Notes under the pieces: model-generated | Database searches by the model: none | Told to the model about the DNA's origin: nothing | The model's input: only the letters and a program-made list of their open reading frames with translations | Made by a program: the position numbers and the translations under genes | Part shown: positions 50,371-56,510 of the stretch, piece after piece | How positions within the stretch are numbered: position 1 is the first letter of the stretch | How the letters are laid out: each line of letters opens with the position of its first letter | Assembly (NCBI RefSeq): GCF_030544485.1 | Contig: NZ_CP130610.1 | Location: 1,550,001 to 1,614,000, forward strand | DNA length: 64,000 nt | Source: Halomonas sp. HAL1 | Lineage (GTDB): Bacteria > Pseudomonadota > Gammaproteobacteria > Pseudomonadales > Halomonadaceae | Direction: 5' to 3'

Positions 50371-50835
50371 TTACTCGTTGGGTGGCCGAGCATGAGAGGC
50401 AAGCCGTTCAAGGGCGCGCTTTAACGTGGGATTGGTCGTGTCTTCAGCGCATTCAGCCAGTGTTTTGCCTGCATCTGCTGAAAGGCTGCGTGTATTACGT
50501 GGCGGGGGCACGATAGGGTGCACTGGGCGCACTTTAAAGGTAAAGCCGCTCACGCTTTCAAAGCCAGGTAACTGATGAAGTAGCTCTAATAGGCGACGCT
50601 GCTCAAAACGTAACCAGGTTAGCCAGCCTGCTTGACCACTGATCAGTGTTAAGCGACCTTCGCGAAAGCCACCGACAAAAATATGTTCACGCATCTCTTC
50701 GGGCAGGTGCGCGCGAAGATGCTGCTGCGCCTGGTCAATTAAACGAGATAGGCGCATTAACTGACTAATATCGCCCGACTTTGAGAGTAGGCGGGCAATG
50801 GGCTGTGCGCGAGAACGCTTAACCTTTATACTCAT
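50371..50835 (-). CDS. dciA: DciA, DnaB helicase operator (DUF721)
   Basis: A 154-residue DUF721 protein, the DciA family that loads or recruits the replicative helicase DnaB in bacteria that lack DnaC. The N-terminal KH-like domain (about 20-110) shows LPEEMREHIFVGGFREGRLTL and AGWLTWLRFEQRRLL; the C-terminal tail is charged and likely flexible. It lies between lpxC and secA as in pseudomonads and is divergent from the small ORF upstream of secA. Confidence 0.88.
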   Translation of the reverse strand: MSIKVKRSRAQPIARLLSKSGDISQLMRLSRLIDQAQQHLRAHLPEEMREHIFVGGFREGRLTLISGQAGWLTWLRFEQRRLLELLHQLPGFESVSGFTFKVRPVHPIVPPPRNTRSLSADAGKTLAECAEDTTNPTLKRALERLASHARPPNE

Positions 50836-50947
50836 ACGCTTAATTCCTAGGGCACCGCTATCCTAGGGTGCCGCTAATGATGACGTCGGAGACATTAACC
50901 GATCTCATTTTAGCAGATTTTACCACGCTCAGGAGCCGGTCTACAGC

Positions 50948-51310
50948 ATGTCACCTACGCTTGATGTTCAATCAGCTTTGCCGCGGCGCCATCGCCGCTA
51001 TGGCTTAGCGCGTTGGTGGCTGGCCGGCTTGTTAGTGAGCTGCCTATTACCCGCGAGTTTAAGCCCCGCGGATGCTTTTCGCAGTGGCGAACGCAGCGTT
51101 ACTATCTGTTTATGGGTACCCGCGATTTTACGTGCGCAGTCGCACTGGGTTGCTAAACGGCAGCGCGCCCTGCGCCGTTGGGCTCAACGCCCTAGGCGCT
51201 TTGCCCCGGTGCGGCGTCTAAGCAGTTGGCTTGCGCCGATGGCCCTGCTGGTGGCAGCGCGCGATGTCTTGACTCAGCGCGGCCCTCCTACCCATCAAGT
51301 ATGCCGTTAA
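50948..51310 (+). CDS. Small secreted-type ORF upstream of secA, candidate arrest peptide
   Basis: I do not recognise a named family for this 120-residue protein. It has an arginine-rich N-region (RRHRRYGLAR), a hydrophobic stretch (about 23-37, WWLAGLLVSCLLPAS) and a probable signal cleavage after ADA (43). The middle is basic (RQRALRRWAQRPRR). Near the C-terminus it reads TQ-R111-G-P-P114, followed by only six residues (THQVCR). Position before secA, an export signal and an R-x-P-P/RAGP-like motif are the hallmarks of secretion-monitor arrest peptides (SecM; RAPP-type ApcA, ApdA, ApdP). An AGGAG lies 12 bases before the ATG. The coding call is moderate; arrest function is inferred. Confidence 0.7.
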   Translation: MSPTLDVQSALPRRHRRYGLARWWLAGLLVSCLLPASLSPADAFRSGERSVTICLWVPAILRAQSHWVAKRQRALRRWAQRPRRFAPVRRLSSWLAPMALLVAARDVLTQRGPPTHQVCR

Positions 51311-51410
51311 GATACTTACTTTGTCCCTACGCTGGTAGGTAAAAGACCTGAAGAAAAAGGGTCTGCCGTATATAGGCAAAGTCCGATGGGTTGTTCGTGA
51401 ATACTTGGAT
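51294..51410 (+). promoter_or_regulatory. Candidate secA leader switch
   Basis: ATCAAGTAT (51294-51302), 5 bases after the last Pro codon of RGPP, can pair with ATACTTGGAT (51401-51410) through nine base pairs with one bulged G. The latter contains the only SD-like GGA of secA, 6 bases before its ATG. Between them lie hairpins CCTAC/GTAGG (51326-51339) and AGACC/GGTCT (51344-51364). AAGTAT can also pair locally with ATACTT at 51312-51317, a competing 6-bp hairpin. A ribosome stalled at RGPP would cover 51294-51302 and free the SD. Confidence 0.45.
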
Positions 51411-51415
51411 ATTTC

Positions 51416-54148
51416 ATGCTTAATAATTTATTACGTAAAGTCGTTGGTTCTAAAAATGACCGCGATGTTAAACGCATGCACAAAAATGTGCCTCAGATTA
51501 ATGCCCTAGAAGCAGAGTTTGAGGCATTAAGTGACGCTGATTTGCAGCAAAAAACAGCGCAATTGCGCGAACGCCTGGCGTCAGGTGAGCCACTCGATGC
51601 GCTGTTAGCTCCCGCCTTTGCAATCGTCCGCGAGGCCAGTAAGCGCGTTATGGGCATGCGCCACTTTGACGTGCAGATGGTGGGTGGTATGACCCTGCAC
51701 CGTGGCCGTATTGCAGAAATGAAAACCGGTGAAGGTAAAACCCTGGTGGCAACGCTGGCGGTGTATCTGAATGCGCTGACGGAGAAAGGCGTTCACGTGG
51801 TGACCGTGAACGACTATTTGGCCCGTCGTGATGCTGAGTGGATGCGGCCGTTGTATGAATTTCTAGGCCTTTCCATTGGTGTTATTTTCTCCGGCCAGTC
51901 TGGCGAAGAGAAGCGTCATGCCTATCAGTGCGATATTACCTACGGTACCAATAACGAGTTCGGCTTTGATTATCTACGCGATAACATGGCGTTTTCGTTA
52001 GAAGACAAAGTGCAGCGTGGCTTGCATTTTGCGATTGTCGATGAAGTTGACTCGATTCTTATCGATGAAGCGCGTACGCCGCTGATTATTTCGGGCGCGG
52101 TAGACGAAAATACGGATCTCTATAAAGTCGTTAATCAGTTGGCTCAGCAGCTTGAGAAAGGCGAAGAGAGTGAAGATGACGATGCCCCGGTGGTCGGCGA
52201 CTTCTTAGTTGACGAAAAGCAGAAACAGGTAGAGCTAACGGAACAGGGGCATAACAAAGTTGAAGAGCTAATGCGCGGCGAGGGTTTATTGGGCGATGAA
52301 GAGTCGCTCTATGCCGCGCAAAACCTCAATTTGCTTCAGCATATGCATTCGGCCCTGCGCGCCCGCTACCTCTATAATCGTGATGTCGATTATATCGTTT
52401 CTGAAGGTCAGGTAGTCATCGTCGACGAACACACTGGCCGTTCTATGCCAGGGCGCCGTTGGTCGGAAGGCTTGCACCAGGCTGTAGAAGCCAAAGAGGG
52501 CGTTACGGTACAGCGCGAAAGCCAAACGCTTGCCTCGACCACCTTCCAGAACTATTTCCGTCTGTATGAGAAGTTAGCCGGTATGACCGGTACAGCGGAT
52601 ACTGAAGCCTTTGAATTTCGTCAAATTTATGGCCTCGACGTGGTGGTTATTCCTACCAACCGTCCATTGGCACGTAAAGACCTGAACGATCTGGTCTATT
52701 TGAGCGCTGAAGAGAAATACGAAGCGATCATTAAAGATGTCAAAACTGAGACAGAAGCTGGGCGCCCTGTGCTGGTTGGTACGGCCTCAATTGAAACATC
52801 GGAGTACCTTGCCAACCTGATGCGAGAGGCCGGCCTCGCGTTCAACGTGCTTAACGCCAAACAGCACCAGAGTGAAGCCGAAATTATCGCTCAGGCAGGC
52901 CGCCCAGGGGCAATTACCATCGCCACCAACATGGCTGGCCGGGGTACCGATATTGTGCTGGGCGGCAATTGGGAGGCTGAATCGGCCAAGCTACAAAACC
53001 CAAGCCAAGAGCAGGTTGATGCGTTAAAGGCTGAGTGGCAGGCACGCCACGATGCTGTGTTGGCCGCCGGCGGCTTACATGTGGTGGGGTCTGAGCGCCA
53101 TGAGTCTCGGCGTATCGACAATCAGCTGCGTGGCCGTGCTGGTCGCCAGGGCGACCCCGGCTCCACGCGGTTCTTCTTGTCGCTTGAAGACAGCCTGATG
53201 CGTCTGTTTGGCTCTGATCGTGTTAAGCGCTTGATGCAGGCGTTAGGGCTTGAGCATGGTGAAGCCATTGAGCATAAGATGGTCTCCAATGCGGTTGAGC
53301 GTGCCCAGAAAAAAGTCGAAGGGCGTAACTTCGATATTCGTAAGCAGCTGCTTGAGTACGATGACGTTGCCAACGACCAGCGCCGGGTGATCTACGACCA
53401 GCGTAATGAAATTCTCGCCGCGGACGATGTGGCTGATGCCGTTATCGGTATTCGTGAAGAGGTAATGGAAACGGCAATTAGCAGCTATGTTCCTCCTCAG
53501 AGCCTGCCCGAACAGTGGGATTTGCCCGGTTTGGAAGCGCACCTGAAAACAGAGTTTAATCTTGATGCGCCCGTGGTTAAGTGGGCTGCTGAGGATGATC
53601 GCTTTAGCGAGGAGCAGTTACGCGAGCGACTGCAGACCATGCACCGTGAAGCCTATGCGGCAAAAGTGGCTGCAGCGGGCGAGAAACTGATTCGTCGCTT
53701 TGAGAAGCAAGTCATGCTGCAGGTGTTGGATACGCGCTGGAAAGAGCACCTTCAGTCAATGGATCATCTGCGCCGTGGTATTCACCTGCGTGGCTATGCC
53801 CAGAAAAACCCCAAGCAAGAGTACAAGCGTGAATCGTTTGAGCTCTTCCAACACCTGCTTGACCATATTAAAGAAGATGTAACGCGCATTCTGAGCCACG
53901 TTCAGGTTCGCCAGCCCGAGGAAGTGGATGCCCTTGAGCGTCAACGCCGCGAAGCGCTGGAGCGCGAAACCGCCACCGCCGCTAGTCGCCATGACGCCCC
54001 GGCCCCTGAGCAGACTGAGAGCGAACATGAGACGTCAGGCAGTGAAGGGCGTCCGGTGCGTCGCGAAGGCCCCAAAGTGGGCCGTAACGACCCCTGTTTT
54101 TGTGGTTCAGGTAAAAAGTACAAGCAGTGCTGTGGAAAATTAAGCTAA
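51416..54148 (+). CDS. secA: SecA, preprotein translocase ATPase
   Basis: A 910-residue motor ATPase that drives proteins through SecYEG. Walker A is MKTGEGKT (102-109) and Walker B is [12 protein letters not shown]; the helicase-type motifs ([25 protein letters not shown]) are intact. The C-terminal zinc-binding SEC-C motif that contacts SecB and ribosomes has C894, C896, C905 and C906. The SD is weak (TTGGAT), which suggests regulated translation from the leader ORF upstream. Confidence 0.98.
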
Positions 54149-55553: not shown

Positions 55554-56510
55554 ATGAGCATAAAGGTAAAACGACGGGTTCACGTCGCGGCAGCTGCGAT
55601 TATCAGCGCCGATCAACAGCAAGTACTGATCGCCCGTCGGCCGTCAAACGTTGATCATGGCGGACTGTGGGAGTTTCCAGGTGGCAAACTAGCACCTTAT
55701 GAGACCGGTCTTGAAGGATTAAAGCGAGAACTGCATGAAGAGCTGGGCGTCGAGATTGTTTGTGCTCAGCCGTTGATTCGCGTTCACCATGAGTATCCTG
55801 ACAAGCATATCCTGCTTGATGTCTGGCAGGTGCATGAGTTTGCCGGAGAGCCTTTTGGCCGTGAAGGGCAGGCCGTGCGCTGGGTGCCTATGAGCGAACT
55901 CTCCAACTATCCTTTCCCGGCAGCAAATTTACCGATACTGCGGGCGGTAAGGTTGCCTACCGAGTATTTGATCACCAACGAAGAGGCTGATGAAGCGCGT
56001 TTTGATGCGTTTTTGGAGCGCGCGCTGCGTGAAGACAAGATTCGCTTGGTGCAGCTGCGTGCCAAGCAGTTGGACGAAGCGGCTTATCTCGCCCGTGCTC
56101 AGCGAGCTCTGACCCTATGCCGTGAGTACGGCGCGCGGCTGCTGCTTAATGGTGAGCCTACTCTGCTGGATCATATTGACGCTGATGGCATTCATTTGAC
56201 CAGCGAGCGTTTGATGCAGCTTGAACGTCGTCCGATTGCTGAAAATAAATGGCTTTCCGCATCGACGCACAACCAGAAGCAGCTTACCCAAGCAGCCGTA
56301 TTAGGCTGTGACTTTGTCAGCCTGTCGCCGCTGCGCACCACGCCATCGCACCCTGAAGTCGCTCCGCTCGGTTGGCATGACTTTCAACAGTTGGTCGAGC
56401 GTGCTGGTATGCCGGTGTTTGCATTAGGCGGTATGACGCGCTTTGATGCCAATCACGCTCGTGCCGTAGGCGCTCAAGGGATCGCCTCAATTCGCGATTT
56501 CTGGAAGTAA
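55554..56510 (+). CDS. mutT: Nudix hydrolase (MutT)/ThiE-like fusion
   Basis: A 318-residue two-domain protein. Residues 1-130 form a MutT-type Nudix domain with the box G44-x5-E50-x7-R58-E59-L-x-E62-E63-x-G65; MutT removes 8-oxo-dGTP from the nucleotide pool. Residues 150-318 resemble a thiamine phosphate synthase (LVQLRAKQLDEAAYLARA, DGIHLTSERL, FVSLSPLRTTPSHP, FALGGMTRFDA). This fusion is known in pseudomonads. The ThiE-like part lacks some usual pyrophosphate-site residues, so activity is uncertain. No SD is seen before the ATG. Confidence 0.92.
   Translation: MSIKVKRRVHVAAAAIISADQQQVLIARRPSNVDHGGLWEFPGGKLAPYETGLEGLKRELHEELGVEIVCAQPLIRVHHEYPDKHILLDVWQVHEFAGEPFGREGQAVRWVPMSELSNYPFPAANLPILRAVRLPTEYLITNEEADEARFDAFLERALREDKIRLVQLRAKQLDEAAYLARAQRALTLCREYGARLLLNGEPTLLDHIDADGIHLTSERLMQLERRPIAENKWLSASTHNQKQLTQAAVLGCDFVSLSPLRTTPSHPEVAPLGWHDFQQLVERAGMPVFALGGMTRFDANHARAVGAQGIASIRDFWK

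Follow-up and report, generated by a model that had tools for sequence, protein, structure and literature searches.

A conserved RGPP-containing reading frame upstream of secA in Halomonadaceae as a probable Sec-monitoring arrest peptide

Introduction

Why does a short reading frame without annotated function stand before secA in Halomonas sp. HAL1, and could its product be one of the nascent chains that hold up their own ribosome? The DNA analyzed here, referred to as the window, is a stretch of 64,000 nucleotides from contig NZ_CP130610.1. We find that the 120-codon frame before secA is a real and strongly selected gene, and by analogy with assayed peptides its product very probably jams its own ribosome to sense protein export.

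Arrest peptides encoded by upstream open reading frames (uORFs) of secA, secDF and yidC were screened by Fujiwara et al. (2024; PMC10987492), who named an “RQH family” among them. Since this class is already in print, the kind of thing that the uORF described below represents is not new. What is possibly new is the homology of the protein body over some twenty genera, an invariant hydrophobic core and a narrow distance between signal and stall site, none of which was found in the main-text parts of that paper considered here.

The uORF and its Neighborhood

The uORF occupies positions 50948-51310 on the + strand, starts with ATG and encodes a candidate nascent-chain arrest peptide of the RGPP type, 120 residues in length. 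A stretch CAGGAG (50930-50935, +), its likely Shine-Dalgarno sequence, is spaced 12 nt from the start codon, and most of 37 orthologues have this stretch, or one that differs little from it, before their own start. The presumed regulated gene, secA, follows on the same strand (51416-54148, ATG at 51416). An earlier note on this DNA had placed the frame immediately upstream of secA; the frame itself is as described there, but the two genes are separated by a leader of 105 nt (51311-51415, +) that carries a weak secA Shine-Dalgarno sequence, TTGGA.

The gene order in the window is murC-ddl-ftsQ-ftsA-ftsZ-lpxC, a divergent dciA (50371-50835, − strand, match to DciA PF05258), the uORF, secA and an argJ-like gene. 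Profile matches gave the names lpxC, dciA and secA, and the remaining ones (murC, ddl, ftsQ, ftsA, ftsZ, argJ-like) are those we take the genes to have from their sequences. A simple scan returned no sigma-70-like promoter, with 1.2 expected by chance.

The uORF product gave zero matches to Pfam or NCBIfam at E<=1. Its nearest named relatives, at 98% identity, are from Vreelandella maris and V. glaciei, and where relatives carry a database name at all it is “hypothetical protein” or “Uncharacterized protein”, apart from one UniRef “Secreted protein”.

Conservation of the RGPP Core

The motif R111-G-P-P114, which the earlier note had pointed out near the C-terminus, is confirmed at codons 111-114 (51278-51289, +), and six further residues follow before the stop. 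By analogy with PMC10987492, the predicted P-site residue is Pro113 and the A-site residue Pro114. In 200,000 shuffles of the frame's own residues, R[AG]PP arose anywhere in 2.0% and within the last 20 residues in 0.3%; such odds alone are modest, and it is conservation that settles the reality of the motif. RGPP is found in 37/37 same-genus genomes, among which all four glycine and all four proline codons are in use, and the synonymous sites of the hydrophobic segment are equally free. Because synonymous codons vary freely at both elements, selection acts on the peptide, and we reject a constraint at the nucleotide level as the reason why the signal is invariant.

From 228 overlapping records (37 + 30 + 80 + 3 + 78) we obtained 178 distinct signal-to-arrest cores, of which 175 carry RGPP and three RAPP. 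Thirty of the records are genomes from other genera (27 RGPP, 3 RAPP), and 80 are named loci, taken from GTDB species genomes whose titles all place them in Halomonadaceae; 79 of these loci hold RGPP. Retrieved with the pattern RWWLAGLL, the named loci are silent on signal variation, and together with the database relatives, found through shared words, they lean to conserved members. A check set beforehand asked whether orthologues keep the body and lose R-x-P-P: the motif is kept in all 178, and the two records without it in frame, L170 and P0049, are both frameshifted and were left out of the 178. L170, the one exception among the named loci (Halomonas olivaria TYRC17, AP019416.1), is frameshifted relative to its relatives with RGPP in another frame, which may be an assembly error or a real loss.

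Conservation is uneven along the protein. Mean majority identity among the 37 is 1.00 for RGPP, 0.96 for the hydrophobic segment (residues 23-38) and 0.82 for residues 101-110, and it falls to 0.48 in the spacer (66-100), which has zero invariant columns, and to 0.24 in the tail. Directly before the motif, codons 103-110 (51254-51277, +) read A-A-x-D-V-L-T-x, with D106 at 96%; farther upstream, a second semi-conserved element covers codons 51-65 (51098-51142, +), with P58 at 97%, R62 at 97% and A63 at 91%. That RGPP gives way to no other core than RAPP among the 178 distinct sequences lends evolutionary support to a laboratory result on these two cores, which are reported to support arrest in varied contexts, RGPP most robustly (PMC12992588).

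Distribution and Linkage to secA

A profile of the family, built from 34 members, matches 234 of 250 sampled Halomonadaceae genomes and 20 of 24 genera, the 234 matches having been read residue by residue in part. The uORF is present in all 37 same-genus genomes, that of HAL1 included, each time with secA downstream, and is absent from the other genomes of the order in the set of relatives (0/21). Of the 30 genomes read from other genera, between one and three for each of 19 genera, secA follows in 30/30. A protein search returned 78 relatives, and all of those with a source organism name are assigned to Halomonas, Vreelandella or Halovibrio. For most of the Halomonadaceae, among which are industrially used halophiles, the uORF supplies a defined candidate regulator of secA that mostly stands in databases as a hypothetical protein.

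The gap between uORF and secA ranges from an overlap (-4) to 207 nt. At the overlapping extreme, L037 (genome G009) has a tail of 44 residues past RGPP and its uORF overlaps the secA start by 4 nt, a geometry of translational coupling.

Relation to the Published RQH Family

One RQH group, uA_RQH_Pseudomonadales, is defined by motif and order, lies upstream of secA and carries R109GPP; its tested member stalls both E. coli and B. subtilis ribosomes, with an arrested fraction >0.9 in both PURE systems, and in the RQH family the third motif residue occupies the P site at the stall (PMC10987492). The Halomonadaceae uORF has the same general features: it is a short, unannotated same-strand uORF before secA that encodes a small protein without annotated function; hydropathy and charge indicate an N-terminal secretion signal or transmembrane segment; and a RAPP-like motif at the C-terminus (175 RGPP and 3 RAPP among 178) is kept among relatives of the same order. 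Its spacer is long, with 76-85 residues from the conserved Cys to the P site, where the published definition asks for >30 residues between the signal and the end of the motif (PMC10987492). The GTDB order is also the same, as most of the former Oceanospirillales are placed in Pseudomonadales with Halomonadaceae among the merged families (PMC7498684).

Among 80 genomes of the order in which the DNA before secA was inspected, a signal-bearing RGPP uORF occurs in the three Halomonadaceae and in 0/76 usable genomes from 43 other families; one further locus, L129, lies outside the 76 with only 100 nt upstream of secA in its contig. Among the other families, L300 holds three RAPP/RGPP strings, all of them in short frames that lie >300 nt from secA and leave fewer than 45 residues between a Met and the motif. 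In one genome an ORF contains LPPP but lacks a hydrophobic segment. Arg at position 109 itself is found in two Halomonadaceae uORFs, L195 and L267. Because the order matches, because the count elsewhere is 0/76 and because R109 occurs in these two members, the published group is very probably the Halomonadaceae uORF family, the main text naming no species for the tested member. The string “halomona” has 0 occurrences in the main text of PMC10987492. Among the literature matches listed, none linked Halomonas with “arrest peptide” or “monitoring substrate”, and Halomonas with SecM gave only unrelated work.

Comparison with SecM and Other Arrest Peptides

The E. coli gene secM lies between lpxC and secA, and its product combines a signal with a C-terminal stall motif and feeds back on secA; the Halomonadaceae gene shares the place directly upstream of secA, the general layout and the presumed feedback, but in the window dciA stands between lpxC and the uORF, which is not so in E. 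coli. The earlier note's view that the peptide bears no other likeness to SecM and would form a separate lineage held up. Comparison of E. coli SecM with the uORF family by hhalign gave a probability of 0.2%, and the SecM family PF06558 is missing from the six Pfam families to which the 34 members gave matches at E<=10, a search whose filters drop most weak matches. Neither the arrest motif F-x4-WI-x4-GIRAGP nor RAGP occurs in the 67 uORF sequences (0/67 for each). The SecM profile had no match in the HAL1 genome, with the E. coli control positive, and none in a class-wide search of 114 genomes, so that the comparison is with E. coli SecM only. On these results membership in SecM is rejected.

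ApdA and ApdP (RAPP) and ApcA (RAPG) share the R-A/G-P core, RAPP being the core of 3/178 Halomonadaceae uORFs. By description, ApdA and ApcA belong to Actinobacteriota and ApdP to Alphaproteobacteria, which sets them apart from the Halomonadaceae uORF; ApdP is linked to secDF and ApcA to yidC, whereas the Halomonadaceae uORF has secA downstream (PMC10987492). VemP and MifM, monitoring substrates too, exert feedback on genes of sec or yidC type (PMC10987492), but differ from the Halomonadaceae uORF in both arrest sequence and downstream gene.

Proposed Mechanism and the Signal-to-Stall Distance

A Sec-type signal at the N-terminus, another claim of the earlier note, is borne out by hydropathy and charge, on which alone the signal was judged: residues 1-22 have a net charge of +4, and residues 23-38 are uncharged and hydrophobic, with a best 15-residue Kyte-Doolittle window of 1.91. 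This hydrophobic segment, WWLAGLLVSCLLPASL (codons 23-38, 51014-51061, +), is invariant at 10/16 columns in the 37 genomes, and Cys32, Leu33 and Pro35 are invariant in 178/178 distinct sequences, no record having been dropped for lacking any of them. A signal core of 16 residues in LolA, used as a yardstick in 30 same-genus genomes, shows a mean identity of 0.75 and 1/16 invariant columns, as against 0.96 and 10/16 in the uORF, although the LolA figure is lowered by some uncertain starts.

Given these features and the precedents above, we consider it highly probable that the uORF product is an arrest peptide of the RAPP/RGPP type that monitors Sec function and feeds back on secA. Judging from assays of related peptides, the ribosome would stall on the uORF with Pro113 in the P site and the prolyl-tRNA for codon 114 in the A site. 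The ribosomal tunnel holds 35-40 residues, and with a spacing of 76-85 residues the signal should therefore be well outside at the stall, where segment 23-38 could engage the export machinery. A pull from active SecA/SecYEG would then release the ribosome. Slow export would prolong the stall, keep the ribosome over codons able to pair with the secA leader and so allow more translation of secA, a step on which the RNA calculations below are mixed. Longer stalling under slow export would thus mean that low Sec capacity raises SecA, as with SecM in E. coli but through an unrelated peptide lineage; this direction of control follows the precedents of SecM and the published uDF_RQH_Enterobacterales group (PMC10987492).

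What the peptide would sense depends on its geometry. The distance from Cys to the predicted P site is 76-85 residues in the 178 cores (mean 81.2, SD 1.7), while the length from start to Cys, with starts set by rule or taken from databases, varies from 18 to 69 and the tail from 1 to 44; in the window, 75 residues separate residue 38 from residue 113. Part of this near-constant stretch is a basic spacer (codons 66-100, 51143-51247, +) whose sequence is unconserved, and the residues between Cys and P site are on average 20% basic (Arg/Lys) and 5% acidic in 67 sequences. Arrest peptides linked to secA and secDF, taken as a class, in most cases vary widely in the spacing from signal to stall, whereas this spacing is narrow in the Halomonadaceae family; MifM has a narrow distance too, with a median of 54 (PMC10987492).

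The family might accordingly act as a molecular ruler of fixed length, in which the hydrophobic segment with its unchanging Cys and Pro would have to lie some 81 residues away from the stall site. Release would then mark a single step on the way out, either engagement of the signal or insertion of a hairpin, and not translocation in bulk, the basic part past the segment hindering complete export. That the peptide senses insertion into the membrane, or the early engagement of its signal, is in our view possible but doubtful. A basic stretch of near-constant length with an unconserved spacer sequence and a hydrophobic segment more conserved than the LolA signal core, with the uncertainty in LolA starts mentioned above, speak for it. 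Against it, the basic start suggests an N-in orientation, for which the distance may vary (PMC10987492), and the body is homologous, so that inertia may account for part of the constancy. The near-constant distance offers a direct test of the point during export at which release of an arrest peptide takes place.

The Leader RNA and the Presumed Control of secA

How a stalled ribosome would raise secA translation was approached by folding calculations. Averaged over 37 genomes, the cost of opening the secA start region is 6.4 kcal/mol in the free RNA, 5.4 with a stalled ribosome and 6.0 with the upstream part shuffled; the cost falls by >0.5 kcal/mol with a stalled ribosome in only 20/37 genomes and exceeds the shuffled control in only 21/37. 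With synonymous recoding as the control, the start region gave a mean z of +0.39, positive in 18/36 genomes, and in the leader the real codons pair slightly more strongly (mean z +0.84, positive in 24/36). Taken together, the stalled-ribosome and recoding calculations leave simple masking of the secA start region unsupported in general.

Two clades, of 11 and 13 of the 37 genomes, were folded with RNAalifold, and their consensus folds differ. In the predicted fold of the 13 genomes that include the window, codons 106-108 of the uORF pair with the secA Shine-Dalgarno sequence and codons 110-113 with the leader, and a ribosome stalled at codon 113 could reach every pair of this long-range helix; compensatory changes are seen in 0/22 of its pairs within that clade. 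The sister clade, of 11 genomes, favors a local hairpin that precedes the Shine-Dalgarno sequence instead. In one clade, 3/8 pairs of the local leader hairpin carry compensatory changes (6 cells), with 0/500 shuffles reaching its covariation score and 59/500 its number of compensated pairs. The hairpin on average surpasses shuffled sequences in stability (mean z -1.18, with 21/37 genomes below -1), yet that of the window is weak (-2.7 kcal/mol, z +1.41). The leader has no Rfam match. In the leader of one clade (L014-L024), a TTGCCTTATAT-like stretch is conserved some 45-65 nt before the secA ATG and could be the -10 element of a secA-only promoter or part of a hairpin.

These results bear on whether the stall would act by unmasking the ribosome-binding site at all. 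It may instead affect how stable the mRNA is, how transcription and translation are coupled, or Rho-type termination in the stretch between uORF and secA, as the inconsistent masking across the 37 genomes, the wide spread of intergenic lengths and the weak local hairpin in the window would allow. We judge this unlikely, given that E. coli SecM works by unmasking the secA Shine-Dalgarno sequence (PMC10987492), that a long-range helix including this sequence is predicted in the window's own clade and that terminator-like sites between 50180 and 51480 are at chance level (3 found against 2.2 expected).

A Secreted or Lipid-Anchored Product as an Improbable Reading

The segment L-V-[S/G]-C that ends at the invariant Cys32 (51041-51043) resembles a lipobox. 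The residue preceding Cys is Ser in 113, Gly in 61 and Thr in four of the 178 sequences, so that Ser or Gly precedes it in 174. Thr is a non-canonical residue at this place, which weakens the lipoprotein reading. It is highly improbable that the gene simply encodes a small protein of ordinary kind, secreted or lipid-anchored, that matters for its product and carries RGPP incidentally, for in spite of the signal-like N-terminus and the lipobox-like segment, RGPP is nearly invariant while spacer and tail are poorly conserved, the gene sits before secA and no domain match rises above the cut-off.

Loci without the uORF and a Neighboring Frame

Sixteen Halomonadaceae genomes, from four genera, are without a profile match. 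Ten of these were inspected, and nine (L131-L139) carry a 309-residue ORF upstream of secA that resembles an M23 peptidase, named from its sequence; one has neither ORF. By a simple pattern, an M23-peptidase-like ORF stands before secA in 25/80 loci of the order, and the uORF may fill the slot of this ORF in the rest of the Halomonadaceae. Farther along the window, at 55554-56510 (+), a single frame joins a Nudix (MutT)-like domain with a thiamine-phosphate-synthase-like domain, as read from the sequence alone.
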